From Lactobacillus sp. ESL0677 (GTDB lineage: Bacteria; Bacillota; Bacilli; Lactobacillales; Lactobacillaceae): 64,000 nt of DNA. The position numbers were made by a program, and so were the translations under genes. The DNA lies in the NCBI RefSeq assembly GCF_029392875.1, contig NZ_CP113946.1, positions 868,001-932,000 on the forward strand, written 5' to 3'. Below the pieces are notes generated by a model that had not been told where the DNA came from, ran no database searches, and saw nothing but the letters and a program-made list of their open reading frames with translations. Below, piece by piece: positions 1 through 18,352 of this stretch. Position 1 is the stretch's first letter; every line of letters begins with the position of its first letter.

Positions 1-507
1 GATGCAGCAGCCGCCGTTGATAACCTAACTAATCATAAGGATGGCACGCCATACACTGATGCCGAAAAGCAAGCGATTAAGGATGCAATCCAACATGAAG
101 TTGATAAGGCAAATAGTTCTGATAATGGTTCAATTGATCACGCTAATACAGTTGACGGTGTTGACACTGCTAAACAAGATGCAGTTGATGCAATCAACAA
201 GATCAGAGATGATAGTGACAACAATAATGAAGATGCGTTAGCGCCAATTGTTAACAACAATACTGCCGTTCAACAAGAACGTCATGATAAGCAGGTAGCA
301 CGTGATAATATTACAGCTGCAGCTGATAAAGCGCGTCATGATTTGGGTGTTGCTAAGGGCAGTGACGAAGCAGTGAAGATCGATCAAGCAGAGCAAGATG
401 CTTTGGATGCAGTTAATAAAGTAACTGATGGCAAATATACTGCTGCCGAAAATTCAGGTTTAGCTAATGTGGTTGACGCCGAAAAAGACACAGCTAAAGA
501 TAAGTTA
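1..507 (+). repeat. Long coding repeat, copy 1 (5' end may lie outside window)
   Basis: This stretch, encoding DAAAAVDNLTNHKDG through EKDTAKDKL, is repeated at 799-1302. The copies differ by one codon in length and by scattered substitutions. The last part, from GVAKGSDEA to DTAKDKL, is almost identical at protein level. Confidence 0.9.
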
Positions 508-3441
508 GATACTGAAGAAACTGCAGCTGCGGAAGCAATTCAACATACTTCTGGTTTAAGTCAAATTGAAAAAGACGAAGCAATTGCTAATGCTAAACAT
601 AAATTAGATGCAGCTAAAGATGCAATTGATAAAGTTTCTAGTGCTGATACTGATGATAAGAATGTCAGTGGCAAACAAGATGCTATCCAAAATGCTTATA
701 ATACGGGTAAGGATGGTATCGACGAGGTATCAAGTGATACTGATAACTTGAGTAAGGCTAAAGAACAGGCTAAGCAAAATGTTGCCCAAGCTGGTAAAGA
801 TGCAGCAGCAGCTATTGACAAACTAACTAATCATAAGGATGGCACGCCGTATACTGATGCCGAAAAGCAAGCCATCAAGGATGCAATCCAACATGAAGTC
901 GATAAGGCTAACAATGAAGGCAATACAATCGACGGAGCTGATAGTATTGGTGCAGTTGATACTGCCAAGCAAGCAGCGCTTGATGCAATCAACAAGATCA
1001 AAAATGATAGTAACAACAATGATGAAGCTGCTTTAGCACCAATTGTTAATGGTGATTCAGCCGTTCAACAAGAACGTCATGATAAACAAGCAGCACGTGA
1101 TAATATTACAGCAGCAGCTGATAAAGCGCGTCACGATTTAGGTGTTGCTAAGGGCAGTGACGAAGCAGCGAAGATTGATCAGGCAGAGCAAGATGCTTTG
1201 GATGCAGTTAACAAGGTAACTGATGGTAAGTACACTGCTGCCGAAAATTCTGGTTTAGCTAATGTGGTTGATGCAGAAAAAGACACAGCTAAAGATAAGT
1301 TGGGCAGTGACTCGGCCGCCCTTGATGCAATTGCAAGTAGTGATACTAACCATGAAAATGTTAATGGTAAACAAGATGCAATTAAGGATGCTTACAATGC
1401 TGGTAAATTGGCTGCTGAAAAGAAGGCAGCTGAAGACAGATTAAAAGCAGCTTATAAAGCAGCTAAAGACAGACTTGGCAATGATGCCGATATATCTGCT
1501 TTGGATAGAAGTTATCAGGACGCACTTAACAACTTGCAAGGCGATTCTGCCGATGAACTTAACAAGTCAGAGCTGGCTGGTGAACGTTCTATTGGTAAAG
1601 GTGCCGTACAAAGTGCTTACGATACAGCAGCGAAGAAGATCGACCAAATGTGGCCTGATGATAATTCACAAACTGCTAAAGATAAGAAAAAGGCATTATT
1701 AGTTGCCGCACAAGATTTGCTTGACGATGCTAATGAAACCGATAATGGCACAATTGATCAAGCTCATCATTCAACTGGAGTTAGTGATGCTCGTAATGAT
1801 GCTATTGATAAGATTAAGGATTTGCATTCTGACAAAGATACAATCAATAACGTAGTTGACAATGATAAAGTGGTTCAAATCGACAAGGCCCATGATACTG
1901 CTGTTGCTAACGGTGCTGATCAAAACAAGGTACAACAAATTCGTGATGATACTGCTGAACAAATTAAGCATGACTTGCAAAACGGTGACCACGAAGCTGC
2001 TAAACAACATGAATTAGCTGGTGAAAAAGAAATTGCCAAGTTAACTGTTCAAGGAGCAGCTGACAGAGTTAAGGATAAAATTGACCATTTGACCAACAAG
2101 CCAGATGGTACACCGTATACTGATGCTGAAAAACAAGCTTTGAAGGATAAGGTTGATCAAGCAATTGATGATATTGTTAATAATGCAAATGGTTCTACTG
2201 GTAAACCAGGCACTATTGATCAGGCAGAGAATAAGACAGATGTCACCACTGCTGAACAAAATGCTATTCAAGAAATTACTAACTCTATTTCAGATAGTAA
2301 TTTAGCTGATATTATCAACAAGGATTCAGAAGTTGCTAAAGATAATGCCGATAAAGCGATTGACGATGCAGTTACTGCAGCCAATACAGCAATTGACAAC
2401 AACAAAAATTGGAGTAAGGATCAAAAAGACAAGCTGAAGAATCGCGTTAAGCAAGATGCCCAAAAGGGTAAAGATAAGATTAAGAATGATTCTGATATTA
2501 GTACAATTAATCGTGATCGCGATGACACTATTAATCAAATCAAGAATGATTACACTGATTCTGCAATCATTAATTCAATTATTGGTAGTAATGATTCAGG
2601 GTCTTCAATTGCAATGCCGATTCCACCAACACAGCCAACTGAAGATGTTACTTTGATGCACAATGCTTACTTATATGATGAAAATGGTAAACGTTGCAAT
2701 AAGGTTGATCTGAAAGCAGGTTCTGTGGTTACGATTTCTGGCAAGCAAAAGATTGGCGACAAGGATTACTTCGTTGTTATTGATAAGGGTGCTAATGACA
2801 AAAAGTACTACATAGTATCTACTAATGTTAATAGCGTTAATGCCGAGTTAACTCATAATGCTTATGTTTATAACAAGTATGGTCAAAGAATTAAGAAGTT
2901 ACATGACTTGAAGAAGGGCAAGACAATCCAAACTTACGGTGGTGCAATCACAATTCGTGGACAGAAGTTCTATATCATTGGCAAGGGTGAATTGGTTAAG
3001 GCTGCTAATGTTGCTGAAGCCAGTGTAATCACAACTACTGAGGTAGAAGCAACTACTAGTGACCAGACAACTGCTGCAACTGAAAAGAAGATCATGCACA
3101 ACGCCTATCTTTATGATCAAGATGGTAAACGTGCCAATGGCTTGATTTTCAATGAAGGCACAGTGATTACTACGACAGGTACTAAGTTAATTAACGGTGT
3201 AGTTTATTACGTACTTGATGATGGTTTGTATGTCAAGGCAGCAAATGTTAATGCCAAGAAGATGAAATTGAAGCACAATGCTTATGTTTATAGTCAATAT
3301 GGCGACCGTAAAGGTAAGACAGTGCTGAAGAAGCATAAGTTGGTTAAGACTTATGGTGATCCAGTTTCGATTCATGGTAAGAAATATTACATTACTGCTA
3401 AAGGAAAATATGTTAAGGAAGCTAACTTCATTAAGAAGTAA
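1..3441 (+). CDS. Giant repeat-rich surface protein with two C-terminal SLAP domains (5' end outside window)
   Basis: The frame is open from base 1, so the gene starts upstream; 1146 residues are visible. Roughly residues 1-860 are acidic, Ala/Asp/Lys-rich helical repeats resembling DUF1542/FIVAR-type spacers. They include three copies of a DG-x-x-YT-x-x-E-K motif (near nt 31, 829 and 2092). A short Pro/Thr linker leads to two SLAP (S-layer protein A type) domains at about 2650-3013 and 3082-3438, each made of two MHNAYxY/KHNAYVY half-repeats. SLAP domains are known to bind cell-wall polymers without a covalent bond, and no LPXTG sorting motif or C-terminal membrane segment is present. The protein is therefore inferred to be a surface fibre or adhesin stalk. 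It is a clear paralogue of the C-terminal third of the next gene. The signal peptide and head domain lie outside the window. The family assignment is firm; the ligand is unknown. Confidence 0.9.
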   Translation, partial: DAAAAVDNLTNHKDGTPYTDAEKQAIKDAIQHEVDKANSSDNGSIDHANTVDGVDTAKQDAVDAINKIRDDSDNNNEDALAPIVNNNTAVQQERHDKQVARDNITAAADKARHDLGVAKGSDEAVKIDQAEQDALDAVNKVTDGKYTAAENSGLANVVDAEKDTAKDKLDTEETAAAEAIQHTSGLSQIEKDEAIANAKHKLDAAKDAIDKVSSADTDDKNVSGKQDAIQNAYNTGKDGIDEVSSDTDNLSKAKEQAKQNVAQAGKDAAAAIDKLTNHKDGTPYTDAEKQAIKDAIQHEVDKANNEGNTIDGADSIGAVDTAKQAALDAINKIKNDSNNNDEAALAPIVNGDSAVQQERHDKQAARDNITAAADKARHDLGVAKGSDEAAKIDQAEQDALDAVNKVTDGKYTAAENSGLANVVDAEKDTAKDKLGSDSAALDAIASSDTNHENVNGKQDAIKDAYNAGKLAAEKKAAEDRLKAAYKAAKDRLGNDADISALDRSYQDALNNLQGDSADELNKSELAGERSIGKGAVQSAYDTAAKKIDQMWPDDNSQTAKDKKKALLVAAQDLLDDANETDNGTIDQAHHSTGVSDARNDAIDKIKDLHSDKDTINNVVDNDKVVQIDKAHDTAVANGADQNKVQQIRDDTAEQIKHDLQNGDHEAAKQHELAGEKEIAKLTVQGAADRVKDKIDHLTNKPDGTPYTDAEKQALKDKVDQAIDDIVNNANGSTGKPGTIDQAENKTDVTTAEQNAIQEITNSISDSNLADIINKDSEVAKDNADKAIDDAVTAANTAIDNNKNWSKDQKDKLKNRVKQDAQKGKDKIKNDSDISTINRDRDDTINQIKNDYTDSAIINSIIGSNDSGSSIAMPIPPTQPTEDVTLMHNAYLYDENGKRCNKVDLKAGSVVTISGKQKIGDKDYFVVIDKGANDKKYYIVSTNVNSVNAELTHNAYVYNKYGQRIKKLHDLKKGKTIQTYGGAITIRGQKFYIIGKGELVKAANVAEASVITTTEVEATTSDQTTAATEKKIMHNAYLYDQDGKRANGLIFNEGTVITTTGTKLINGVVYYVLDDGLYVKAANVNAKKMKLKHNAYVYSQYGDRKGKTVLKKHKLVKTYGDPVSIHGKKYYITAKGKYVKEANFIKK
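799..1302 (+). repeat. Long coding repeat, copy 2
   Basis: Second copy of the repeat at 1-507, with a period of about 798 bases. After it the sequence diverges to GSDSAALDAIASSD, while copy 1 continues into DTEETAAAEAIQ. This marks the end of the duplicated block. Confidence 0.9.
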
Positions 3442-3456
3442 TTAGCTTGAATAAAT

Positions 3457-3501
3457 AAAAATGTCTCAAATTGTTAGAAATAACAGTTTGAGGCATTTTT
3501 T
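3457..3501 (+). terminator. Rho-independent terminator of the first SLAP gene
   Basis: The arms aaaaatgtctcaaa and tttgaggcattttt pair with one G-U wobble and are followed by a T run. It starts 15 bases after the stop codon. Its sequence resembles the terminator of the second SLAP gene at 18305. Confidence 0.9.
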
Positions 3502-3584
3502 GTATGCAGTTGTAATCTAATAATTATCTAGGTTTCTACATTTTAAGTAAATTTTTCTAAAACTAACAATTAATTAGTTATAGT

Positions 3585-3910
3585 TAATAACTTTAAAATT
3601 TATAATATTGTCCTATTATTACAAGTTACCTTTACTAAGGAGTCAATTTAAATATATTACATTAACTAGAATTTTAAAATTTACTTACATAAAATCATTA
3701 ACTATGTTATATCAGCAATTTTTACTTGGCTAAGTAAAAATTTTAAAATAAATAACTATGCAAATTATACATATTATTTATATGTTTAATTATAATGAAA
3801 ATAATAATAAATATAATCCAAATAATTGCTGGATTTTATCTGATTTCTTAATTGAAATAGACTACTACCTAGTCATAAAATTATGATTAATTATAATTTT
3901 AAAGTTATTA
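3585..3910. repeat. Distant 16-base perfect inverted repeat pair
   Basis: The left arm TAATAACTTTAAAATT (3585-3600) is the exact reverse complement of 3895-3910. The arms are 294 bases apart, inside the AT-rich gap. Chance is possible in such biased sequence. Confidence 0.5.
3717..3742. repeat. Perfect 11-bp hairpin, AT-rich
   Basis: AATTTTTACTT, loop GGCT, then AAGTAAAAATT. The stem is perfect but has a single G-C-type pair per arm, so it is a poor terminator. It could be a protein-binding site, a DNA cruciform or nothing. Confidence 0.6.
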
Positions 3911-4119
3911 CAATATTTTGGCAATTAGTAGTGTTATAAGCAAAATGATTAACAATAAAAATAAGCTGCCAATTATTTTTTATTGATAAAATGCTGTTAT
4001 ATAGGCGTTCTTAGCTTTTGAACAATAATTTGAAAGTTGGAGCTATGATATTTTTGCATAAATGAAGAAGTTGATTTTTTATAATAAAAATCATGTTTTG
4101 CTAATTGCTAACTATTAAT

Positions 4120-4149
4120 TTGCACATTTGTAACTATTATTTATATATA
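4120..4149 (+). promoter_or_regulatory. Candidate promoter of the giant SLAP gene
   Basis: TTGCAC at 4120-4125 is followed after 16 or 18 bases by TATATA-type hexamers (4142-4149). That gives an untranslated leader of about 85 bases. In this AT-rich sequence many -10-like words exist, so confidence is low. Confidence 0.35.
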
Positions 4150-4240
4150 AAATAATATAATTAATAATGTATTATATTTGAAATTATCTAGCTATGATTT
4201 ACAATGGTACATGTTCAATTTTATGTAACAAGGAGTATTT

Positions 4241-7200
4241 ATGTTAGGAAAAAATAATTTTAACGAAAGATTACGAAAGATGGAAATGCAAGCTAAGCAG
4301 GACCATTTTTCAATCCGTAAATTAAGTATTGGTGCTGCCTCGGTATTGCTTGGCTTTACTTTCTTTGGCTTAAATAGCCAAAGTGTACAAGCAGATACAT
4401 TGACTTCACAACCTCAAGTAAAAGAAGCAACTCCTAATACATCTACAGGTAATAAGTTACTGACGGATAAGCAAGTAACGTTGGCTAAAAATACTGCCCC
4501 AACTACTACGCAGCAGTCAGCAGAAAAAACTACTAAAAGTACACAAAAACTGGATACTTATACCAAATTAAGTAAGTTTTTACGTGATTCAAATGTTGCA
4601 ACTGTTACGGCTAGCGCTGGTAATGTAACAGAGTCAAGTAAGCCAAGTACTGTTAATACCGCTGCATCAGCAACTGCTGCAAGCGTTAAACCTGAGCAAA
4701 AGCCAATAGATAATCAACCTACTGATATTACTAACAGTGTAGCAGTCACACCTACTACTACTGATAAACCGGTGGCTGCCAAGCCTGAGCAAAAACCAGC
4801 TGTTGCTGCTGCAAGCACAGTAGATATTGCAACGCCAGGACAAGCCATATCTACTAATAAGCCAGTCACAGTTGATCCTGATGGGCAGCCGATTGTACAA
4901 GATGGAGTAGCAGCTTATAATGGTTTGTCTGAACTTACGAGTGAAGAAAAACAAGCTGGTAAGGTTTTGCATAATTATGATACGACTAATGATTCGACAG
5001 TTTATATTGGTAATTGGGATGACTATGTAAAGGCGTTAGCTAATCCTAATATTCATAATATTGAGCTTATTAATAATATTAATGCCCCAACTAATAATGC
5101 TGATCATCCTATTGCCACAGCACAGCGGCAACTAGTCATTGAATCTAGTAATAAAGATGGTAAGATGCCTGAAGGTGGATATATCATTAACTATAAAGGG
5201 TATGATTCGCGTAACAATAGTAAAGGGGCTAATGGTACATTAGATGTAACTTACCGGAACTTACGACTATATTCACAGACATACTTGGGCTTATGGAATA
5301 CTGTTGATGGTGGGATGGTTGGTAATTTTCCTAAGAAAATTACTTTAGAAAATATTACTTACCAAGGGGCCCAGATTATTTATGCAGGTAACTATACGGA
5401 AGTACATATTAAAGGCAAAGTTGATGTGGCTTCAGTACCAACTTATGTTTCACCACTTGATAATTTAACTTATAAGTCACAAGAAAATAGTCAACAAGTT
5501 TTTGAATTATCACATCAAGGTGACAGCTTAATTTTTGAAGCGGGATCACAATTTACAGGAACTTCTTCACGTGATAACGTTATCGAAATGAATAACGGAT
5601 CAAGTGGTACAACAGCTTGGAAAGACCCACAAGGTATAGTTCATCAGCTAGATAATGAGTCCAAGATTGTTCTGTCAGGTGCTAACGGTGACTTGCCAGC
5701 AGCTCAAGTAACTTTAAATCCTCGGGGAGTTTCAGCAGTTAGTAATGCAAGTCCGTCAGCAACAGGTATGGCTGCGGCAATTAATATTTCTGGTGATAAT
5801 ACTGTTGGGGAGGTTAATATTGAAAATGGTGCTACATTAACAATTAATAACACACCTGCTGTTAACACTAGCATTAAAGATAATGGTTCCGCAGCTGCAA
5901 TCATGTTAGTCTCACCTAAGGTTAATATGAATGTGCAGGGAACAATTGACATTAAGACTAATAGTAATATTAATACTGTTTCAAAAGATAATGGTGTTCC
6001 TAAAGCAGGCTATTTAGTTTACGATGGTGGTAATTTAACGATTAGACGTGGTGGAGTAATTGATATTGCCGGATCGCAAATGGGTACTTATTCCGGAACT
6101 TTACTTTACATTGGACAAAAAGCTTATCTAGATAACGGTTCAATAAATATTCATCTAGATGGAGATAATACTGTTGATGGTGCCGGAACTGGTGCAATTA
6201 TCTTAGTTGACGTTTCTAATTCAGGATCGTTAACGGTTGATAACCCTGAAAGTTTGATTTTAAATGCGTCTAATAATACTAATCCTGGCACCAGTATTAT
6301 CGGTGATAGTGAAATTGATATTACTAACATTCGGCAACAGTTTGATTTTAGTAAAATAATTCCCGGCTTCCCTAAAATAACTTTACCGCCATTTCATGTT
6401 TTACGAGTTAAGAAAACAAACGGCTCTATCAGTGTAGTTCAAGATGATAAAACGAAAAAGTTGGGAATCGAAGTCTTAAATGGTAAGTCCCATATTGACG
6501 ATGCCCATATTAAGAAGCTTACTGATGCTTTAAAAGGAGAGCCAACAGTTGCCGTAGTTCTTGCTAAAGCCTTGGGACAGGATGTTCCAACTAATCCAAC
6601 GCAATTAACACCAGATATAGTTAATAGCATTGTTGCAGGAGTCAAAACTGCCTTAGAAAATATGAAAGCGGTTAGTTTTGACCAAGTTTTTGCGCAAATT
6701 ATCACTCAGGCATTTTCAGATCCTACTAACCCTGGTTATAACAACATTACAATGTTACCAGCTAACCAAAAGGGATTCTTGGATATCGCAGATGATGATG
6801 GTAATTTAGGTAAAGCCTCATACCACCAAAATGATGATGGCTCGATGACAGTTAGTGGTAAGGTTGTTAACTTCAGTAATTATGCGGTAGATGAACCAGA
6901 TAACTTATTCAATGATGTAATGCCAACAGGAACTAATGCTTACGTTGCCGTAAGTGTTAATGGTGGTAATTATTATCAAGATGACAAGAATCAAGTAGCC
7001 GATCCTTACCAGTATACTGATGACGGTGAGGATGGTGTAACCAACGATTTGCCGCACACTTATGTAGTTATGGCTAACATGGATGCTAAGAGTCCAAAGT
7101 ATGGTACTTTTAGTTTTACTTTACCAGCAGATGCCTATCATAAGGGGGATCAACTGCAAATTGTTCCTGAAGCCAACTTTATTAGTTATGATCCTAATGA

Positions 7201-10200
7201 TCCTGCAGGTACACACCAAACGGTGGGATTAAATAATGGGATTCTAACTACAGAAGAAAAGCAGGATCAGGCAGCCAATACTGTTATGCAAGCAGCTAAC
7301 GCAGCAGTGAGTCAAGTCCAAGCTGCGGCAGCAGCTGATCCGGATAAATCACCAGCACATCAGCAAAAGTATACAGACTATGAAGCAGCCATTAATGCGG
7401 CAGCTAACGTGGCTACTGCTAAACCGACACTGGCAGATGGTACGGCTAATCCTAATTACGATGCAGCAAAATCTGTCTATGGTGCAACTGATTTTGCCAT
7501 AATCAACCAAGCTAGAGATAGAGCTAAAAACAGCATTAATACGGCGACTAACCAAGCACAAGCTTATAGTGCTGTTCAGCAATACTTACAAGCTGGCAAG
7601 GACGACTTAGCTAAGCTCGGTCTAACTACTGGTTTTCCAAGTGAAAAATTAGTTGAGCAAATCAATGATGAAATTGCTTCGGTTAAAGCTGATGGTTCTA
7701 ACAAGGATAGTGTTGAAACTGACCTTAAGAATCAGATACTTGACGAATATCAAACTGAAGTTAAAAATTCACTAACTTCATACGGCCCAAGTGATGCAGA
7801 TTTAAGTAAGTTGAATTTGCCGGATCAAGCCTATGTTGCTTCTATTGATAAGTTACGAAATCCTGATAATATTGCGCAACAATTAGCAAGTACACCATCA
7901 ACAGGTACTACTGCCGATTTCCAAGGTAGTCAGTTGATTAATAAGAACAAGACTGCAATTGATTTAGCAGCAGCTCAGGCACAGGCTACCTCAGAGTTAA
8001 ATAATTATGCGCAAGCACAAGCTGGCGCTTATCCTGATTTTGCCACGGCAATTAGTCAAGCACAAAATAATTATCAAACAGTTATCAATAATGAAACTAC
8101 TCTTAATAATTTACAAGATGCTAAAGGCAGTAACGCTAATGCAACTAACCGAGATCAAGTTACGGATGTTAAGAATGGGATGGCCGCTGTTGATCAGGTA
8201 ATTACAAGTTACAAGTCCAATTTAAAGCAACACTTGCAACAGCAACTTACCGGTGGTACCGAAGGTACTACCACTTATCCTAACTTGACTGATGAAATTA
8301 ATGATTTACAGGGTTATTTGAATGGTACAGGGATAGGTACTAACCTTGATATTTTAGCTGGAATTAAGCGGCTTAAGCAAGAACTTAGTGATGCCACTGA
8401 AATTGCTGCTAATGGTGGCGCGATTGATAGTGCTGCTACAGGACAAGATACTGCTAAACAAAACCAAACAGCTCAAGCTTTAATTGACGATGTTACTAAG
8501 CGGATCGCAGCTCTTAATAAGTTAAAGGCTGCTGCTGATCAAGCTAAGCACGATGCACCAAAGCAAACACCAGCTATTAATGAAGCATTAGCTCAAGCTG
8601 CTAAAGATGTCTTTGCTGCTGCTAATGATACTAATGGTAAAACACCAATTGAAACTGCAGCTAATCAGGGAGTAACTGCAATTAATAATACTGTTAAATA
8701 TAGTCAAGCAGAAGATACAATTGATAAAGCCTATGATGCTGCTAAGCAAAAAATTCAAAGTTCTGGCTTGAATGCTGCTGCTCAGAAACCATATTTAGAT
8801 GATCTGAATGCAGCATATCATGCAGCAACGGACAAGAACAGTAAGAATTCAATTTTTAATACAACAAATCCTGCTTACATTATTAACAGACAAAATGCAG
8901 CACTTAATAAGTTTAATAGTGCTGCAGCTAAGGCAGAAGTTGCTAACTATGCTAACCAAGTAAAGCATGATTTAGAGATCACAGGTTCTAATGCTGATAT
9001 TGATCAGGCATTAGCTGCAGCTAATAATCCTAATTCTGGTACCCTTGATCAAGCCGCAGCAAATAGCACTGGTAACTCGACTGATATTACGGATAACGCT
9101 ACGGGTATTACTCAGGCAGCTGCTGCAGCTAAGGCCAAAATTTTAGCTGCAGCTAAGCGAGTTGCTAAACAACAATTAGTTGATAAGGAAAACGCTGTTG
9201 AGGCAGCATTAGATAACCTTTCAACTTTGAAGGATCCGGAATTAAGCAAGGCTAAACAACAAGCTAAGGATGTGATTAGTAAGGGTGATGGCACCGGTGC
9301 CCAAGAAAAAGTAGACGCAGCAACAGATGAAAGTACTGTAGCGTCTGCATATCAAGACGGTATTGCGGCACTTAATAATATACTTAGTCAACAAACAGAT
9401 GCAGATAATCGTGCGCAAGCTATTCAGGCCGTTAAGGACGAGCAAAGTAAAGCTATTGCTGATTTAGCACAGACTACTGGCAAATATGCTGATTTAACGC
9501 CTGAACATCGTCAAGATTTAGTTAATGCGGTTAATACTGCTGCAGCAGCAGGAATAACTGCAATTAATAATGCAGCCAATGATCAGGTTGAAACAAACAA
9601 AAATACTGCAATTAATAATATTAATAAGGTTTTAGCTAATGCTGCAACAGAAAATAAAAATGATAAGCAGGATAAGGATACTGCAATTAATAATGCGCGT
9701 AATGATGCCCTTAGCAATTTAAAGGACGCTTATGTTGCTGCACAAAATGCAGTTAATTCATTCCCTGCGGATCAAGTAAGTTCTACTAAAAAGAATAAGA
9801 TTTTAGCTAAGATTGATCAGGATTATAAGGCCGCACAAAATGCAATTAATACTGCAACAAATAAAGATGATATTACTAGTGCAGAAGAATCAGGTGCGTC
9901 GGCTATTAACGCTGATGCTAAGGCGGCTGAACTTGAAGCAGCTAAGGCAATTGCTATTACTTCTTTGAATAATGAACAAGCTAAGGATACTAAGACGGTT
10001 GATGATGCTCTTGCTGCTAATAAAATTACGCAGCACCAACATGATCAGATGATTGATCAAATTAATAATTATCATGATACTGGCGTTAATGATATTAATA
10101 GTGATGCAACAACTACTACCGATCAAATTAACAAGTACTGTGGCACCTCTATTGATGCTATGTCGGGTGTAGCGATTGGTGTTAATAATACGGCTTTGGC

Positions 10201-13200
10201 TAACGCTAAGGATCAAGCTAAGCAAGATCTTAAGGCACTTGCTAGTCAAGTTAAGCAACATATTAATGATTTGGCCAGTCTAGGATCCGATGAAAAGAAT
10301 AGCCAATTAGCGCAAGTTGATGCTGCATTGGCAGCAGCTACAAGTGCTGTTGATGGTGTTAATAGCACTAATGATATTAATACAGCTTATAACGAAGGTA
10401 AAAGTAATATTTTATCTGTTCAGTCAGCAGCTGATTTGCAGAATGCCAAAAATGCAGGTAAACAAAAATTAGATAATCAGCAAGCAACGGTTAATAATGC
10501 AATTGATGCGTTAACTAGCTTGGATGAAGCAAGTAAGGCTGCTCTAAAGCAAAGTGTTCAACAAGCGTATGACGCTGCCCTTAATAAAGTAAACAATCCT
10601 AGTCCAGCAAGTCCAACTCAAGTTGCTAAGGATACCGATGCTGGCTACAATGCCATGCAGTCAATTTTAGATAATGCACAGGGGCTTGATATTGTTAAGC
10701 AAAATGATAAAACAGCTCTAGATAATGCTGCTCAAGAAGCTAACGATCGGATTGATCAATCTGATTTAACTACAGAACAAAAAGCTGCTGCTCATGAGGC
10801 AATTAATCAAGCACGTGATGCTGCTAAGAATGAGGTTGATAAGGCAACTATCGATACAATTGCTAAGGTACATGCTGCTAAGCAAACAGGAATAGACAAT
10901 ATTACGGCAGCAGAAAATAAAGCCAACAGTAAATATCTCGCTGACTTAAAACAACAGGCTGATCAGAAAATTGATGCCGCTTGTGATACTGCTAAACAAG
11001 ATTTAGCAACTGAATTTAATGATTTAACTCCTGATGAACAAGCAGAAGCTAAGCCAGCTTTTGATGCAGCTAATGCGGCAATTGAAACCGCACGGACTCA
11101 AGGTAAACAGGCAGTTGCGGCTTCTAATAATAAACAGGAAATTGATGCGGCAACTAATACCGCTGTCACGACGGTTCAAACTGCTGAAACTCCAGCATAT
11201 TTGGTTTCAGCTCAAGTTAAAGGCAAGCATACGATTAAAGATTATGGTGACCAAATTAAGGGTGAGTTACCTAATCCTGATAGTACTGATGGTGCAGCAG
11301 CAATTGCTGACTTAGTAAATAATGCAATTGCTGAAATTACTACCACTGATAAAACACCTACTGACGTAAAGAATACTGTCAAAAAATATCAAGATAAGAT
11401 TGATGGGATTAAGGCAACAGCTGATTCAACCCATAAAGATGAAATTGCTAAAGCTAAAGATGCTGCTTATACTGCTTTAGAACATAAGTTAAATGGCGAT
11501 GGCACTAATAAGGGAACACTTGATGAGCTTGAGGGCTTAAAGGATCAATTAACTGGCAGTCAATTAGCCGCTTATGAACAACAAATCAAGAATATCCTTG
11601 ATACTACACAAGATAATGTTAAGGGTGATGCTGATATTCCGTCCATTAATCGTGATCGTGATAATGGTCTTGATAATATTCAACAAGCATTAAATGATGC
11701 CAAATTGCAGGCTGCCAAGAATGCTGCTAATAAGCAATTAAGTCAAGATGCCCAAAATGCAATTAAGCAAATTAACGGTATGTCTAACTTAACTAACAAG
11801 CAAAAGCAGGACGCAATTGACAAGATTAATAATGCGATTGCTAAAGATAAAGCTAGTGGTAGTGAATATCAAATTAATGCTGCCCAAGATAAGAATACGA
11901 TTGATGGCATTGTCACAAGTACTGAACAAGCAATCAACGGCATTGTTAATAATGCATCAAATACTGATTTCACTACTGCTCAACAAGCAGCTAAAGATAG
12001 TTTAGCCGCAGAAGCTGACAAGCTTAAAAATAGGGTTAAGGATGACTTGGCTGCTAAACCGCAGAAATTAAGTCAGACACAAGCTGCTGATTTAACTACA
12101 CAGATTACTAATGCGTTAAATACTGCAGAAGGTAAAATTGATAAGGCAACGAGTCAGTCTGAAATTAACCAAGCTGAAGCTGCTGGTGAAACTGCCTTGG
12201 CAACAGTAGGTGATAATATTGATAAAGATGAAGCACAACAATCAAATTTAGAACAGATCAATGCTGCTGTTAATGCTGCTAAGGATAAGGCTGAAGCCTA
12301 TCTTGCTGAACACTCGAATATGACAGAGGAACAAAAGCAACATGTTTATAATCAGCTAGCTGCGATTAGTAATGCTGCTAATGAAAGTATTAATCATCAT
12401 CGTGAAGATAACAATGATGCAATTGCAAGTATGAATCAGTCAGCTATAGATGGTATTAACCAATTAAACAATTTAATGAGTAATTGGGATGCTAAAGAAC
12501 AGGCTGTGCAGAAATTGAAGGGCCATGCTCAGTCGGCTAAGGATACAGTAGTAACTAGTAATCCAGATTATGCGACCTTGACACCTACACAAATTGCTGC
12601 AGCGCAAAATGCCATTCATGAAGCACAACATCAAGGTGAGAATACAATCTTTGGTTTGGATACTTCTAAGAATAAGCTTGATTCTGCTGAACAAGATAGT
12701 GAAGTTGCAATTGATAATGCTTTATTGCCATATAAGTTACTAAGCAAACAAAATCAAGAGACTAGTGCCCTTAATCAACATGCTAAGAAGCAGTTGGCAG
12801 CTCTTGAAAGTTTGGCGCAAAGTCCCGATAATCCAGAAGGTTTAACGCCTGAAGAACTAGCATCTTATCAACAGCAAATCGAACAAGCCCAAAATGCTGC
12901 TGCTGAAAGTATTGGTCAAGTAAGCTTGCCAACTCCGGCTGGTGCGGCTGATTATGAGACAGGTAAAAATAAGGTTGATCAAGCTGAAACCGCTGGTGAG
13001 ACTGCAATTGATCAAATTATTAATAGTGCTAAACAGGGTGCTAAGAAGCGGCAAGAAATTGCAGCGGTTCAACAGGCAGCTCAACAAGCTGACCAAGTAA
13101 ATGGTGTTGATCAAGCTGCCGTTGCAGCAATTGTAAATGCAGCTACAACAGCAATTAATGCTACCTCAGATACGACAGGAGCTAATGCACCTGAAGGAAT

Positions 13201-16200
13201 TAAGGAAAATGCCGTTGCAGCAATTAATAAGCTGGTTGATCAAGCTAAAATTAATAGTTCTCAACATGATACGACTAAGTCATTAGACCAAGCAAAAGCA
13301 GATGCTGAAGCAATTATTAATCGTTCACAATTAACTGCTGAACAAAAGGCTGCTGCTAAAGAAAAGATGGCTAGTCTTTATGATAATGCTCAAAAGCAAC
13401 TAATTGCTGCTAATAAAGATCAAAATGGTCAAGTTCTTCCAGCAGATGCTTATCAGGCAGCAGCTAAGCAAATTGTTGCTGGTTACCAAAAGTTGGTCGA
13501 TCGAGTTCTTAATGAAAATAGTGATACTTCGTATCCGTGGTTTAACAATGAAGCTACTAATGCTTATAACGATTTGAATGGTAAATGGCAAGGGATTGAG
13601 CAAGGATTAACTGCTGCAGAGCAAGATAAATATCAAGACTTAATTAATACTGTCAATGATAGCTTGGCTAAACTTGATAAGACGCAAACAGGTCATAACA
13701 ATACAATTAAGGATGCAACAGAAACTTATGATGCTGGACTAACTGCTTTTAATAAGTTGCAGGCTATTAAAGACATCGAAGCTGCTCAAGCAGCCGCTAA
13801 TGCAGCGATTGCTGAAAATTCAAGTTTAAATGCTGCTCAAAAGCAACCATATCAAGAACAAGTTAATACTAATGCCCAAACAGCTATTAACAATATTCTC
13901 GGAGTAACCCCAAGTTCTAATGATACGGTGGGTAACCAAGATAAGATTGTAGCAGCTGAAGGCAATGTTATGAATGATCTTAATACGATTGTCAATGGTG
14001 CTAAAGATGAAGCAGCTGGTCACCTAGTTGATGCTAAAACAGCGCTCAAAGCTAAGCTGGATGCTGCTTATGCAGCAGCTAAAGCCAAGTTAGGAACAGC
14101 TTACATGCCCGGCAGTGAATTAGATCAAGTGCATGAACATGAAGTTGAGCAGCTTAATGGATTGTCATTAGCTGGACTTAATGATCCTAAAACGGCTGAA
14201 CAGGCAATTAAGAATATTAACAAGGCTGCCGTTGTCGAAGCAGCTGCTTATGCTAATGATCAGATTGATCATTTAAAGCACGAAGATGGCTCAGATTATA
14301 CTTCAGATGAGAAGGCTGCATTGAAAGCTGCAGTTAATGGTGAAGTCACTAAGGCTAACGATGATACTCAGGGTACAATTTCTACTGGTACTACTATTCC
14401 AGATACGGTTACAACTGCACGTAACGACGCTATTGATCAAATAGGTAAAGATTATACTGATCCAGATGTGATTAACCAGATCTTGAATAATAATGAACAA
14501 GTTCAAGTTGACCGTGCAAAAGCACAGGCGCAAGCAGATATAGCTGCTGCTTATGAAGCAGCTCAGGCTAACTTACCTGATGGTGCTGATACGACTAACT
14601 TAGATAATGCGTACCTTAACCATAAGATAGTAATTGGCAATAGTGTTGCTGCTATTAAAGAAGCTGCACGAAAAGCCGAACAAGCAATTGCTCAGGGTGC
14701 TGTGCAAGATGCTGCTCTAGCGGCTAAGAATGAGATTAAGAATTTAAAGCATGAAGATGGTTCAGCTTATACTGATCATGAACAAGCAGCTTTGAATAAC
14801 TTAATTGATAGTAATATGCACGATGCTGCTCAAGCGATTGCAGCAGCCCAAGCTAACCCAAGCAGTATGACAGCTCTGCAAGCTTCTAAGACGAAAGATG
14901 GTTCGATTGTCAGTGGTGCATTAAACAATGCCTTAAATGTCATTAGTGCTAATGGTACTGGTAATTCAAATGCTGATAAAGCAGCTTTGAATAGTGATCC
15001 TGCTGTTTTAGCTGATGCTAAAGACAAGGCTAAGAAAGATATTGCCCAAGCTGGTAAAGATGCAGCAGCTGCAGTTGATCAGCTGACTAATCATCAAGAT
15101 GGGACACCTTACACTGATGCTGAAAAGCAGGCAATTAAGGATGCAATTCAAGAGGAAGTTGCTAAGGCTAATGGAACTAAGGCTGATCAGGGCACTATTG
15201 ATAATGCTAATTCAGTACCTGATGTCAATACTGCTAAGCAAAACGCCCTTGATCCTATTAATAAGATTAAGGATGCATGTACGAATAATAATGGTAGTGT
15301 TCTGGATCCAATTATTAGTGCTAATGAAGTTGTTCAACAAGAACAAAAGAATAAGCAAGCTGCCCAAACAGCTGTCACTGCAGCTGCTAATAAGGCTCGT
15401 CAAGACATGGGCGTTGCTAAGGGTAGTGATGAAGCTAAGGCAATTGACCAAGCAGAGCAAGCTGCCTTGAATACAATCAATCAGGTAACAGATGGCAAGT
15501 ATAATGATGCAGAAAATACTGGCTTAGCTGGTATAGTTGATTCCGAAAAGCAAACAGCTCAAGCACAATTAGCCGCAGCAGAGAATGTCGTTGAAAGTGC
15601 GATTGCTCAGGATACTGGCTTGAGCACGGCTGATAAGGCAGCAGCTAAGCAAAGTGCACAGGCAGCTTTACAAGCAGCAGTGGCCTTAGTTAATCAAGTA
15701 GAAAGTACTGATACAACGGGGGCAACCGTAAATGCTAAGCAAGATGAGTTGAAGAATGCTTATAATTCAGCTAAATCACAATTTACACAAGTTACTACTA
15801 ATGCTGGTAATTTAAGTAATATTAAGCAAGCTGCTAAAGCTCGGCTACAAGCAGCTCACGATGCAGCGATTGCTAATGGAGTAGCTAAGACAGCTGCTGA
15901 TAGAGTTCAAGCAGCTGCTAACAATATGATTGATCAGGCACAAGACGAAGCAGGAATCAATCGAGCTGAAGTTAATGGTGAAAAAGAATTAGCTAAGTTA
16001 GAAGTTCAAGCGGCAGCTGATGCAGCTAATGATAAGATCGACCATTTGAAGCATGAAGATGGCAGTAATTACACTGAACATGAAAAGCAGGCCTTAAAGG
16101 ATAAAGTTAAACAAGATCAAACTGCTGCCGAAGCCGCTATTGATGCGAGTGAGACAGTGGCTGAATTAGGACAGTCCAAGAATGATGGCATTAAGCAAAT

Positions 16201-18292
16201 TAATCAAGATAGTGCTAATTTAGAAACAGTTAATAATATTCTTGATCATAATAAGCAAGTACAACTTGATCGGGCACTGACTACCGCTAAGAATAAGTTG
16301 CAGTCAGCCTACAATTCTGCTAAGAATAAATTAGGTAAAGATGCTGATACCACTAAGCTTGATGCTGCTTACCAAACTGCTCTTACTAATTTACAAGCAG
16401 ATTCACTAACTGATCTTAAGCAAACAGAACTAAATGGTGAGAAGACTATTGCTAAAGGTGCTGTTGCGAGTGCCTATGATACAGCAGCTCAAAAGATTGC
16501 CCAAATGTGGCCGAATGACGATTCACAAACGGCTAAAGATAAGAAGCAAGCTTTGTTGAATGCAATTTCAGCTTTACTGCGTGATACCAATTTCCCTACT
16601 AGTGGTAGCATTGATCAGGCAGATGAATCAGGAGCTATTTCGAGTGCTCGTGATACTGCTATTAATATGATTAATGAGTTAAATGGTAATCAAGATAAAG
16701 TTACTGATATTATTAATCATGACCAAGTAGTACAAATTGACCAAGTGTGTGATCAGGCTGTTGCTAATGGTGCTGATCAAGATAAGGTTCAACAAATTCG
16801 CGATGAAACTACTGATAAAATTAAGCAAGCTTTGCAAAATGGTGACCATGAAGCAGCTCAAAAGTATGAACTAGCGGGTGAAAAAGAAATTGCTAAACTT
16901 GAAGTTCAAGCAGCAGCTGATCAGGCTAAGGATAAAATTGATCATTTGACAACCAAGCCAGATGGTAAACCTTATACTGAAGCCGAAAAGAATGCATTGA
17001 AGAATAAAGTTATTCAAGAAATTGCGCAAGCTGAGACTACCGGTGATACTAAGATTGATGATGATCAGACTGATACGTCTGACAAGGTTAATCTAGCTAA
17101 ACAGGAAGCAATTGCTCAAATCAATCAGGTGCTTGCTGGAGATCATTTAACTGCAATTGTTAATAATAGTATTGCTGTTGCTAAAGATAATGCTAATCAA
17201 GCAATTGCAGCAGCCGTTGCAGCAGCAAATGCAGCAATTGATGCTAATAAGAATTGGAGTGAAGTTGAGAAGCAAGAACTAAAAGATCGCATTAAGCAAG
17301 ATGCCGAAAAGGGTCAAGCTAAGATTAAGACGGATCAAGATATTATTACTATTAATCATGATCGTGATACGACTATTAATCAGATTAAGCAGGATTACAC
17401 GGATCAAGCAACGATTATTAGTATTATTGGCACTAATTCATCTACCGCACCAATAATTAATACTTTGCCAGCTGCTAATAAGGTAACTTTAATGCACAAT
17501 GCTTATCTTTATGATGAAAATGGTAACCGTGCCAACAAGATTGACTTGAAGGCTGGCTCAGTAGTCACGACTTATGGTAAGCAAAAGATTAATGGTACAG
17601 AGTACTTCGTCTTGATTGACAAGGGTGCTAATAACAAGAAGTATTACGTGGTAAGCACGAATATAACTAGTGTGCACAAGACTTTGACGCATAATGCCTA
17701 TGTCTACAATAAGTATGGTCAAAGAATTAAGTCTCGTCATGCATTGAAGAAGGGCACGACAATTGCTACATTCGGAAGTGCTGTTACTATTGAAGGCCGC
17801 AAGTACTACATCACTGGTGAAAACAAGTACGTGAGAGTAACTAACTTTGCTAGTGATTCGACAGCTGCAACTAAGACGGTTAAGACACAAGCGACAGTTG
17901 CTCCAATTAGTGACAAGCCTGATGCTCCAGTTGAAAAGAAGATTATGCATAATGCATATCTTTATAATGAACAAGGTGTTCTGACTACTGGATTGATCTT
18001 TAATGCTGGTTCAGTAATTACCACGACTGGCACTAAGTCAATTGATGGCGAAATTTATTACGGACTTGAAGACGGCTTGTATGTCAAGGCTGCTAATATT
18101 GATGCCAAGAAGTTAAAATTGAAGCACAATGCTTACATTTACGGCCAATATGGTAATCGTAAAGGTAAAAAGGTGCTTAAGAAGTCTAAGTCAGTTAAGA
18201 CTTACGGCAATGCAATTTCTGTTCAAGGTAAAAAATATTATATTACAGCCAAAGGAAAATTAGTTAAGAAAGCTAACTTCAACAAGAAGTAA
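4241..18292 (+). CDS. Giant YSIRK/SLAP surface adhesin, 4683 aa
   Basis: Residues 1-52 form a YSIRK-type signal peptide (core FSIRKLSIGAASVLLGF, cleavage expected after SVQA). A Thr/Ser/Pro-rich linker with two KPEQKP repeats follows, to about 220. Around 240-720 lies a beta-rich head starting near VYIGNWDDYVKALANPNI, which resembles the pectate-lyase-like adhesive domain of lactobacilli. A further beta domain spans about 845-1000. From about 1004 to 4400 runs a helical stalk of DUF1542/FIVAR-like repeats. Five copies of the DG-x-x-YT motif sit in its last third (near residues 3347, 3504, 3617, 3938 and 4238). Two SLAP domains (about 4414-4683) end the protein. There is no LPXTG, so attachment to the wall is inferred to be non-covalent. 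A few cysteines (such as YCGTS and AACDTA) are unusual for such proteins. AAGGAG lies 5 bases before the ATG. It is probably an adhesion fibre; the ligand is unknown. Confidence 0.93.
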   Translation: MLGKNNFNERLRKMEMQAKQDHFSIRKLSIGAASVLLGFTFFGLNSQSVQADTLTSQPQVKEATPNTSTGNKLLTDKQVTLAKNTAPTTTQQSAEKTTKSTQKLDTYTKLSKFLRDSNVATVTASAGNVTESSKPSTVNTAASATAASVKPEQKPIDNQPTDITNSVAVTPTTTDKPVAAKPEQKPAVAAASTVDIATPGQAISTNKPVTVDPDGQPIVQDGVAAYNGLSELTSEEKQAGKVLHNYDTTNDSTVYIGNWDDYVKALANPNIHNIELINNINAPTNNADHPIATAQRQLVIESSNKDGKMPEGGYIINYKGYDSRNNSKGANGTLDVTYRNLRLYSQTYLGLWNTVDGGMVGNFPKKITLENITYQGAQIIYAGNYTEVHIKGKVDVASVPTYVSPLDNLTYKSQENSQQVFELSHQGDSLIFEAGSQFTGTSSRDNVIEMNNGSSGTTAWKDPQGIVHQLDNESKIVLSGANGDLPAAQVTLNPRGVSAVSNASPSATGMAAAINISGDNTVGEVNIENGATLTINNTPAVNTSIKDNGSAAAIMLVSPKVNMNVQGTIDIKTNSNINTVSKDNGVPKAGYLVYDGGNLTIRRGGVIDIAGSQMGTYSGTLLYIGQKAYLDNGSINIHLDGDNTVDGAGTGAIILVDVSNSGSLTVDNPESLILNASNNTNPGTSIIGDSEIDITNIRQQFDFSKIIPGFPKITLPPFHVLRVKKTNGSISVVQDDKTKKLGIEVLNGKSHIDDAHIKKLTDALKGEPTVAVVLAKALGQDVPTNPTQLTPDIVNSIVAGVKTALENMKAVSFDQVFAQIITQAFSDPTNPGYNNITMLPANQKGFLDIADDDGNLGKASYHQNDDGSMTVSGKVVNFSNYAVDEPDNLFNDVMPTGTNAYVAVSVNGGNYYQDDKNQVADPYQYTDDGEDGVTNDLPHTYVVMANMDAKSPKYGTFSFTLPADAYHKGDQLQIVPEANFISYDPNDPAGTHQTVGLNNGILTTEEKQDQAANTVMQAANAAVSQVQAAAAADPDKSPAHQQKYTDYEAAINAAANVATAKPTLADGTANPNYDAAKSVYGATDFAIINQARDRAKNSINTATNQAQAYSAVQQYLQAGKDDLAKLGLTTGFPSEKLVEQINDEIASVKADGSNKDSVETDLKNQILDEYQTEVKNSLTSYGPSDADLSKLNLPDQAYVASIDKLRNPDNIAQQLASTPSTGTTADFQGSQLINKNKTAIDLAAAQAQATSELNNYAQAQAGAYPDFATAISQAQNNYQTVINNETTLNNLQDAKGSNANATNRDQVTDVKNGMAAVDQVITSYKSNLKQHLQQQLTGGTEGTTTYPNLTDEINDLQGYLNGTGIGTNLDILAGIKRLKQELSDATEIAANGGAIDSAATGQDTAKQNQTAQALIDDVTKRIAALNKLKAAADQAKHDAPKQTPAINEALAQAAKDVFAAANDTNGKTPIETAANQGVTAINNTVKYSQAEDTIDKAYDAAKQKIQSSGLNAAAQKPYLDDLNAAYHAATDKNSKNSIFNTTNPAYIINRQNAALNKFNSAAAKAEVANYANQVKHDLEITGSNADIDQALAAANNPNSGTLDQAAANSTGNSTDITDNATGITQAAAAAKAKILAAAKRVAKQQLVDKENAVEAALDNLSTLKDPELSKAKQQAKDVISKGDGTGAQEKVDAATDESTVASAYQDGIAALNNILSQQTDADNRAQAIQAVKDEQSKAIADLAQTTGKYADLTPEHRQDLVNAVNTAAAAGITAINNAANDQVETNKNTAINNINKVLANAATENKNDKQDKDTAINNARNDALSNLKDAYVAAQNAVNSFPADQVSSTKKNKILAKIDQDYKAAQNAINTATNKDDITSAEESGASAINADAKAAELEAAKAIAITSLNNEQAKDTKTVDDALAANKITQHQHDQMIDQINNYHDTGVNDINSDATTTTDQINKYCGTSIDAMSGVAIGVNNTALANAKDQAKQDLKALASQVKQHINDLASLGSDEKNSQLAQVDAALAAATSAVDGVNSTNDINTAYNEGKSNILSVQSAADLQNAKNAGKQKLDNQQATVNNAIDALTSLDEASKAALKQSVQQAYDAALNKVNNPSPASPTQVAKDTDAGYNAMQSILDNAQGLDIVKQNDKTALDNAAQEANDRIDQSDLTTEQKAAAHEAINQARDAAKNEVDKATIDTIAKVHAAKQTGIDNITAAENKANSKYLADLKQQADQKIDAACDTAKQDLATEFNDLTPDEQAEAKPAFDAANAAIETARTQGKQAVAASNNKQEIDAATNTAVTTVQTAETPAYLVSAQVKGKHTIKDYGDQIKGELPNPDSTDGAAAIADLVNNAIAEITTTDKTPTDVKNTVKKYQDKIDGIKATADSTHKDEIAKAKDAAYTALEHKLNGDGTNKGTLDELEGLKDQLTGSQLAAYEQQIKNILDTTQDNVKGDADIPSINRDRDNGLDNIQQALNDAKLQAAKNAANKQLSQDAQNAIKQINGMSNLTNKQKQDAIDKINNAIAKDKASGSEYQINAAQDKNTIDGIVTSTEQAINGIVNNASNTDFTTAQQAAKDSLAAEADKLKNRVKDDLAAKPQKLSQTQAADLTTQITNALNTAEGKIDKATSQSEINQAEAAGETALATVGDNIDKDEAQQSNLEQINAAVNAAKDKAEAYLAEHSNMTEEQKQHVYNQLAAISNAANESINHHREDNNDAIASMNQSAIDGINQLNNLMSNWDAKEQAVQKLKGHAQSAKDTVVTSNPDYATLTPTQIAAAQNAIHEAQHQGENTIFGLDTSKNKLDSAEQDSEVAIDNALLPYKLLSKQNQETSALNQHAKKQLAALESLAQSPDNPEGLTPEELASYQQQIEQAQNAAAESIGQVSLPTPAGAADYETGKNKVDQAETAGETAIDQIINSAKQGAKKRQEIAAVQQAAQQADQVNGVDQAAVAAIVNAATTAINATSDTTGANAPEGIKENAVAAINKLVDQAKINSSQHDTTKSLDQAKADAEAIINRSQLTAEQKAAAKEKMASLYDNAQKQLIAANKDQNGQVLPADAYQAAAKQIVAGYQKLVDRVLNENSDTSYPWFNNEATNAYNDLNGKWQGIEQGLTAAEQDKYQDLINTVNDSLAKLDKTQTGHNNTIKDATETYDAGLTAFNKLQAIKDIEAAQAAANAAIAENSSLNAAQKQPYQEQVNTNAQTAINNILGVTPSSNDTVGNQDKIVAAEGNVMNDLNTIVNGAKDEAAGHLVDAKTALKAKLDAAYAAAKAKLGTAYMPGSELDQVHEHEVEQLNGLSLAGLNDPKTAEQAIKNINKAAVVEAAAYANDQIDHLKHEDGSDYTSDEKAALKAAVNGEVTKANDDTQGTISTGTTIPDTVTTARNDAIDQIGKDYTDPDVINQILNNNEQVQVDRAKAQAQADIAAAYEAAQANLPDGADTTNLDNAYLNHKIVIGNSVAAIKEAARKAEQAIAQGAVQDAALAAKNEIKNLKHEDGSAYTDHEQAALNNLIDSNMHDAAQAIAAAQANPSSMTALQASKTKDGSIVSGALNNALNVISANGTGNSNADKAALNSDPAVLADAKDKAKKDIAQAGKDAAAAVDQLTNHQDGTPYTDAEKQAIKDAIQEEVAKANGTKADQGTIDNANSVPDVNTAKQNALDPINKIKDACTNNNGSVLDPIISANEVVQQEQKNKQAAQTAVTAAANKARQDMGVAKGSDEAKAIDQAEQAALNTINQVTDGKYNDAENTGLAGIVDSEKQTAQAQLAAAENVVESAIAQDTGLSTADKAAAKQSAQAALQAAVALVNQVESTDTTGATVNAKQDELKNAYNSAKSQFTQVTTNAGNLSNIKQAAKARLQAAHDAAIANGVAKTAADRVQAAANNMIDQAQDEAGINRAEVNGEKELAKLEVQAAADAANDKIDHLKHEDGSNYTEHEKQALKDKVKQDQTAAEAAIDASETVAELGQSKNDGIKQINQDSANLETVNNILDHNKQVQLDRALTTAKNKLQSAYNSAKNKLGKDADTTKLDAAYQTALTNLQADSLTDLKQTELNGEKTIAKGAVASAYDTAAQKIAQMWPNDDSQTAKDKKQALLNAISALLRDTNFPTSGSIDQADESGAISSARDTAINMINELNGNQDKVTDIINHDQVVQIDQVCDQAVANGADQDKVQQIRDETTDKIKQALQNGDHEAAQKYELAGEKEIAKLEVQAAADQAKDKIDHLTTKPDGKPYTEAEKNALKNKVIQEIAQAETTGDTKIDDDQTDTSDKVNLAKQEAIAQINQVLAGDHLTAIVNNSIAVAKDNANQAIAAAVAAANAAIDANKNWSEVEKQELKDRIKQDAEKGQAKIKTDQDIITINHDRDTTINQIKQDYTDQATIISIIGTNSSTAPIINTLPAANKVTLMHNAYLYDENGNRANKIDLKAGSVVTTYGKQKINGTEYFVLIDKGANNKKYYVVSTNITSVHKTLTHNAYVYNKYGQRIKSRHALKKGTTIATFGSAVTIEGRKYYITGENKYVRVTNFASDSTAATKTVKTQATVAPISDKPDAPVEKKIMHNAYLYNEQGVLTTGLIFNAGSVITTTGTKSIDGEIYYGLEDGLYVKAANIDAKKLKLKHNAYIYGQYGNRKGKKVLKKSKSVKTYGNAISVQGKKYYITAKGKLVKKANFNKK

Positions 18293-18304
18293 ACTTTAGA
18301 TAAG

Positions 18305-18346
18305 AAAATGCCCCAAATTGTTAAAATGACAATTTGGGGCATTTTT
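18305..18346. terminator. Bidirectional terminator between the giant gene and rarA
   Basis: A perfect 17-bp stem (aaaatgccccaaattgt and its complement) has a 7-base loop, with T runs on both strands. It serves the giant gene and the convergent rarA, whose stop is at 18353. Confidence 0.93.
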
Positions 18347-18352
18347 TGTTAT

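Follow-up and report, generated by a model that had tools for sequence, protein, structure and literature searches.

A tandem pair of giant SLAP-ended proteins in a Lactobacillus genome with no sortase match

Two giant genes lie in tandem

The window analyzed here is a 64,000-bp stretch of the genome of Lactobacillus sp. ESL0677 (G000), a single contig (C1) of 2,028,798 bp that is 98.91% complete, and it covers genome positions 868001-932000. It opens on two neighboring open reading frames (ORFs), ORF1 and ORF2, which encode giant proteins with a YSIRK signal peptide, a head, a long repeat stalk and two C-terminal SLAP regions. ORF2 lies entirely within the window, as does the 3' part of ORF1. 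The features of the pair are as follows:

1..3441, + strand: 3' part of ORF1 (end of the stalk and two SLAP regions; 1146 amino acids [aa] in the window)
2335..2550, + strand: DUF1542 repeat of ORF1 nearest the anchor (genome 870335-870550)
2638..3006, + strand: first SLAP region of ORF1, two PF03217 repeats (genome 870638-870781, 870821-871006)
3067..3417, + strand: second SLAP region of ORF1, two PF03217 repeats (genome 871067-871243, 871241-871417)
4241..18292, + strand: ORF2, predicted giant adhesin, an open frame of 4683 codons
4295..4369, + strand: YSIRK signal peptide of ORF2 (genome 872295-872369)
4982..6217, + strand: beta-solenoid head of ORF2, from structure matches, with PF20585 inside it at about 5000-5383
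7418..17410, + strand: stalk of ORF2, DUF1542-type repeats (residues ~1060-4390; limits approximate)
17477..17839, + strand: first SLAP region of ORF2, two PF03217 repeats (genome 885477-885608, 885657-885839)
17846..17929, + strand: Thr-rich linker between the ORF2 SLAP regions, poorly conserved (by eye)
17930..18271, + strand: second SLAP region of ORF2, two PF03217 repeats (genome 885930-886094, 886092-886271)

When ORF1 was joined to the upstream DNA of its own genome, it proved to be a single open frame of 5422 aa (G000:C1:855173-871441). The giants have estimated masses of 500-760 kDa. The intact frames of 4683 and 5422 codons rule out a pseudogene or frameshift origin, and a chance origin is excluded by the domain E-values together with the long open frames. 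A recent duplication was also ruled out, since the two proteins are only ~39% identical in the head and ~41-51% identical in the longest aligned parts of the stalk and C-terminus. At the DNA level, the longest exact match between the genes is 52 bp and no 20-mer is common to the 800 bp upstream of each; bases 1-26000 contain just three short tandem repeat arrays. The closest named match to the ORF2 head comes from Lactobacillus sp. ESL0679 (94%), with further named relatives in L. helsingborgensis, L. kullabergensis, L. kimbladii and L. bombicola, which we take to be bee species. The host Lactobacillus is probably bee-associated.

Predicted solenoid heads on DUF1542-type stalks

The two proteins begin with nearly identical YSIRK signals (Pfam, 6.7e-9 in ORF2). 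Scanned alone, the N-terminal 1053 aa of ORF2 and the N-terminal 1000 aa of ORF1 each gave a Pectate_lyase_5 match above cut-off; the domain was unlisted in scans of complete ORF2 and of the leading 4600 residues of ORF1. The best structural match of the ORF2 head, determined with Foldseek and VIA, is the binding region of the serine-rich repeat proteins (SRRPs) of L. reuteri (5ny0, 5nxk), with which it shares a right-handed beta-solenoid at a VIA identity of 16-17%. In the L. reuteri proteins, according to the relevant passages of PMC6973325, this region lies between serine-rich regions of an LPXTG protein; in ORF2, a head of this type sits instead on a DUF1542-type stalk with SLAP regions.

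DUF1542 was matched in six stretches of ORF2 (Pfam, 4.2e-11) and in two stretches of the window part of ORF1 (3.1e-10). DUF1542-type repeats and giant length are common to the pair and the Ebh-type staphylococcal giants, and EbhA (2dgj) stands among the VIA rows for the stalk model considered below, a low-confidence model whose matches are not significant. A stalk profile compared with the sequences of solved structures found nothing at E values up to 0.1. The preliminary description of this DNA had presented ORF2 as a protein of 4683 residues with a YSIRK signal, an adhesive head, repeats and two SLAP domains, and the open frame, the Pfam matches and the separate head scan uphold that account.

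The C-termini resemble teichoic acid-binding domains of S-layer proteins

Pfam matched SlpA/SLAP in four stretches of ORF2 (1.7e-42) and SlpA in four stretches of the window part of ORF1 (1.2e-53). Each SLAP region spans ~120 aa with two PF03217 repeats, and there are two regions per giant, which is the sense in which the literature counts two SLAP domains and in which the preliminary description was right to do so; the Thr-rich linker that it reported fits the poorly conserved stretch between the regions. A profile of eight SLAP C-termini matched four distinct PDB sequences (S-layer, S-layer protein and SlpX) at E values of 5.8e-28 to 5.1e-14, the best match being 7qeh (5.8e-28), and lent family-level support to SLAP anchoring, which had been put forward as family knowledge.

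According to passages of PMC11181022, the C-terminal (TAB) domain of SlpA and SlpX is made up of two SlpA motifs and binds teichoic acids, with micromolar affinity for long lipoteichoic acid and affinities of 3.5 and 0.5 mM for short fragments. The TAB domain of Lactobacillus SlpA and SlpX gives a significant profile match to the C-termini of the giants, and since one TAB domain consists of two SlpA motifs, each giant carries two TAB-like regions. Unlike SlpA and SlpX, the giants have two such regions per chain and are not S-layer subunits. The SLAP regions may therefore be what holds a giant on the wall.

Sortase-anchored adhesins end in an LPXTG motif with a hydrophobic segment and a basic tail, a combination absent from both full chains. 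A motif scan for LP.T[GA] throughout the two chains found no occurrence, so that the lack of LPXTG first noticed in ORF2 holds in full-length ORF1 (5422 aa) after upstream extension, a refuting test that had been set beforehand. The last 40 residues of ORF1 and ORF2 are not hydrophobic and contain no C-terminal membrane anchor. Outside the signals, the most hydrophobic 19-residue stretches lie in the head regions, with values of 1.53 at residue 759 of ORF1 (1.52 for the signal itself) and 1.09 at residue 648 of ORF2.

No sortase match in the host genome

Sortase is the enzyme by which most related bacteria fix such fibers. We compared 61 Lactobacillus genus genomes, including that of ESL0677, drawn from a larger genus group. 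The sortase profile PF04203 gave no match in G000; it matched in 55 of the 61 genomes, all but G000, G004 (85% complete), G015, G050, G064 and G071. In the sister genomes G010 and G067, whose ValS is 100% identical to that of G000 after rounding, the only sortase is a divergent one in a 247-aa frame (1.7e-13 and 7.7e-13, respectively). Detection of these divergent enzymes suggests that an orthologue in G000 should have been seen. The divergent gene of G010 (L105 5983-6714) lies ~3 kb from a gene for an LPKTG-ended protein with repeated domains (L105 144-2690, - strand).

When four sortases were compared with the NCBIfam classes, none reached a class cut-off, so we describe sortases by frame length and topology only, in a grouping by frame length that was made after the data had been seen. 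The sortase of G044 (L111 610-1512, + strand; 301 aa) has an extra N-terminal region of ~90 residues with four cysteines.

Six SLAP-ended giants, including serine-rich stalks

The G000 genome contains 53 PF03217 matches and six SLAP-ended giants of 5422, 4683, 3612, 2916, 6935 and 3658 aa, which together take up 81,678 bp or 4.0% of the genome. The 3612-aa protein has a YSIRK signal, 15 DUF1542 stretches and four SlpA stretches, and is the sole giant with a clear stalk period (79 aa). The 2916-aa protein (G000:C1:721638-730388, L025) combines YSIRK and Pectate_lyase_5 with 13 Rib stretches and four SlpA stretches, and is thus another stalk type on the same SLAP anchor.

The remaining two giants are serine-rich repeat proteins of 6935 and 3658 aa (G000:C1:662272-683079 and 699422-710398; L022-L024), the former with 34% Ser and 29.7% Ala and the latter with 38.2% Ser. 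They flank an accessory Sec cluster with Asp3, glycosyltransferase, SecA, SecY, Asp1 and Asp2 domains. Both end in three SLAP repeats at the place where LPXTG would be expected, and a motif scan found no LPXTG in either; nor was a binding region seen by eye in the parts of the chains inspected.

A search with the N-terminal 189 aa of the 3658-aa protein gave 21 matches, of which two were in G000, five were short or weak and were left out, and 14 had their ends examined. Relatives occurred in seven of the 61 genomes, all in the giant-bearing clade described below, and the seven coincide with those members of the clade that have either no sortase or the divergent one alone. By motif patterns only, the ends of the 14 relatives have three SLAP-like repeats in eight cases, two in two, one in one and none in three (one of which runs off its contig), and none of the 14 has an LPxTG-type motif in its last 60 residues. 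Sections of PMC6973325 describe SRRPs with an LPXTG anchor and class those without it, or split over two adjacent ORFs, as pseudo-SRRPs; S-layer is not mentioned in those sections. We found no open-access paper that names both a serine-rich repeat protein and SLAP.

Anchorless YSIRK proteins stand upstream of the serine-rich stalks

Four YSIRK proteins of G000 (1087, 1241, 1146 and 1209 aa) have neither a SLAP match nor an LPXTG motif:

G000:C1:646199-649462, 654174-657899, 657989-661429 and 695175-698804: anchorless YSIRK proteins

Three of the four heads are related to those of the giants, with 34-38% identity to ORF2, and the fourth protein has DUF285 and Rib domains. Both serine-rich stalks of G000 have an anchorless YSIRK head of this kind immediately upstream. 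In the DNA upstream of the stalk start at eight loci of relatives, a YSIRK ORF was next upstream in six and absent in two; Pectate_lyase_5 was present in both of the two that were scanned among these six ORFs. At locus L135 the upstream YSIRK ORF is 716 aa long and its end resembles the Rib-type 1087-aa protein, and at L134 it is 2032 aa long. The order of accessory Sec genes (recognized by eye), head and stalk in G010, G064 and G067 is that seen at the 3658-aa stalk of G000, and two further stalks of G067 lie directly 3' of another stalk. We hypothesize that the head docks on the serine-rich stalk. Alternatively, the anchorless YSIRK ORFs may be truncated adhesins.

SLAP giants and sortase type across the genus

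We counted as giants those proteins with a nearly full SLAP quartet in a frame of ≥2000 aa. Among the matches listed, best first, which is also the scope of the sortase counts that follow, such giants occur in at least 15 of the 61 genomes; in G023, G044 and G055 the frames with the quartet are shorter (386-875 aa), perhaps because contig ends truncate them. A short, strongly matching sortase (frames of ~225-255 aa) is present in none of the 15 giant-bearing genomes vs. 41 of the 46 others, the other five without it being G004, G023, G044, G048 and G055. Eight of the 15 have a sortase frame of 316-331 aa, two a divergent sortase and five none. In the four longer sortase frames that were read (G017, the second copy of G022, G062 and G054), a C-terminal hydrophobic segment was seen by eye.

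A ValS tree was built from 59 genomes (G006 and G055 of the 61 were left out because ValS was not or only partly recovered), and in it a branch with a support of 87 separates the 15 genomes, together with G023, G044 and G048, from the rest. The Fisher value for giants vs. short sortase is 2.2e-10, which is not independent evidence, given the relatedness of the genomes and a tree on which two changes suffice.

Relation to published systems

The pair is a member of a family already described. In Firm-5 bee lactobacilli, according to passages of PMC4449606 (Ellegaard 2015), tandem genes at two genomic sites encode proteins of 1500-4600 aa that combine YSIRK with two SLAP domains and as many as five DUF1542 domains. 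ORF1 and ORF2 share the YSIRK signal, the central DUF1542 repeats, the two SLAP regions and the tandem arrangement, and differ in their length (5422 and 4683 aa) and in the adhesive head identified here. The pair is therefore not new in kind, and the suggestion in the preliminary description that it would by itself be a different surface system does not stand; its reading of the architecture was sound, and it overlooked the absent sortase match and the wider set of SLAP giants. We conclude that the earlier observation was right and its first interpretation partly right, and that, with the architecture in print since 2015, the pair alone is of modest interest.

The words sortase, serine and SecA2 do not occur in the main text of PMC4449606. 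Fibrillar adhesins as defined in sections of PMC9210967 have an adhesive domain, a repeat stalk and a surface anchor, which we find in the pair via homology and prediction only; that survey has sortase motifs among its anchor features, where the pair has SLAP, a term with no occurrence in its main text. SLAP in place of LPXTG has precedent, and LPXTG-free genomes are known: from the passages concerned, each of 213 genomes encoded between 0 and 27 LPXTG proteins, and 17 of 60 cell envelope proteases had SLAP as their anchor (PMC4667430), and the extracellular proteins of three bee lactobacilli included S-layer proteins with SLAP domains (PMC4015849). We found no paper in the open-access literature that joins sortase loss with SLAP-anchored serine-rich repeat proteins, and as far as we have checked, a sortase-negative genome whose giants, serine-rich ones included, end in SLAP is new.

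Interpretation

We consider it likely that ORF1 and ORF2 encode single-chain fibrillar adhesins that are held non-covalently on teichoic acid by SLAP, with sortase uninvolved. The YSIRK signal would direct export of the giants through Sec. The N-terminal beta-solenoid head, of the L. reuteri SRRP type, would bind a ligand, plausibly plant pectin or bee-gut host glycans, and a stalk of perhaps 40-50 helical repeat units would carry it away from the wall, where the pair might form a brush. The two C-terminal SLAP regions, with four SlpA motifs, would by domain homology provide a non-covalent hold on teichoic acids. Sortase would play no part because the giants are without its signal and the genome gave no sortase match. 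The pair belongs to a wider set of six SLAP-ended giants that includes serine-rich stalks beside accessory Sec genes.

Several points weigh against this interpretation. The surface location, fiber form, ligand and attachment of the giants are all predicted. The sole part of the ORF2 stalk that was modeled (residues 3856-4380) is predicted to be helical with a predicted template modeling score (pTM) of 0.41, a low overall confidence; the model has no significant match among PDB structures, and no clear sequence period was found in the stalks of ORF1 and ORF2. Because SLAP-type binding is weak, force might detach a 500-kDa protein. The LPXTG profile PF00746 gave zero matches in nine of the 61 genomes and, separately, in G000, which is weak evidence because it missed the LPKTG protein of G010. 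Finally, the association of giants with sortase class is one or two evolutionary events, not 15, and rests on one clade.

The weakness of the binding leads to one alternative, to which we give a minor share of belief: the giants may be mainly released as matrix or biofilm proteins that the SLAP regions hold only briefly. Non-covalent, weak SLAP binding (in the passages of PMC11181022 cited above), the four YSIRK proteins without a visible anchor, and the extracellular SLAP-domain S-layer proteins of some bee lactobacilli (PMC4015849, in passages that name no giant) are in keeping with release, whereas the two SLAP regions per chain kept in the giants of at least 15 of the 61 genomes suggest selection for holding on, and SLAP is said, in the passages of PMC4449606, to mediate the binding of S-layer proteins to the cell envelope. 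It is improbable that the heads, with their Pectate_lyase_5 matches, are polysaccharide lyase-like enzymes and the giants wall-tethered machines for pectin degradation rather than adhesins. That the giants are structural parts of an S-layer lattice, not long fibers, seems very improbable: SLAP-type domains do anchor Lactobacillus S-layer proteins (PMC11181022, in part), and G000 has its 53 PF03217 matches, but a head and several thousand repeat residues are unlike the S-layer proteins of 40-200 kDa in the passages of PMC4449606.

We also think it unlikely that there is nothing unusual in the set beyond what was described in 2015, with the missing sortase a detection or assembly gap. The tandem architecture is indeed found there (PMC4449606, in the parts concerned), and the failure of PF00746 on the LPKTG protein of G010 demonstrates that profile negatives can fail. 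However, G000 is one contig and 98.91% complete, PF04203 found even the divergent sortases of G010 and G067, and G064, G071, G015 and G050 are sortase-negative too.

Beyond the fibrillar adhesin interpretation of the pair, we tentatively offer a broader and doubtful one, in which the lineage lost sortase and rebuilt its giant-adhesin display on SLAP anchors, including a split serine-rich adhesin of which the window pair is the fused single-chain counterpart. The split form would, as part of this same doubtful whole, consist of a glycosylated Ser-rich stalk that is exported by the accessory Sec system and held by SLAP, and of a head that is a separate anchorless YSIRK protein, encoded directly upstream, which would dock outside the cell.

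Discussions of YSIRK signals and serine-rich repeat proteins usually involve sortase and LPXTG as well. A sortase-free bee-gut Lactobacillus with both, if true, would raise the question of what YSIRK and serine-rich repeat signals do without covalent wall linkage, and of whether a few weak teichoic acid-binding domains can hold an adhesin of 500-760 kDa under shear. Since the sisters G010 and G067 have some kind of sortase, a natural comparison is possible.

Surroundings of the pair

ORF2 is preceded by an AT-rich gap of 800 bp. The AT-rich stretch before the gene contains 22 consensus promoter matches vs. 10.4 expected from shuffles, and the promoter-like sites there are consensus matches only. 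The flanking sites of ORF2 are as follows:

4178..4205, + strand: promoter-like site of ORF2, TTGAAA-16-TACAAT (consensus match only)
18303..18347, + strand: terminator-like hairpin of 20 pairs with a T tail, 3' of ORF2

Two MreB-like genes, recognized by eye, lie on either side of the giants, one upstream (G000:C1:850520-851539) and one downstream (window 30988-31992). In G064, a SLAP quartet (G064:C1 712456-713346) stands at about the same distance from valS (7.4 kb) as in the window and is part of a single 6902-aa frame; the matches listed include no other quartet nearby. The length and copy number of the giants seem to vary at this site near valS.
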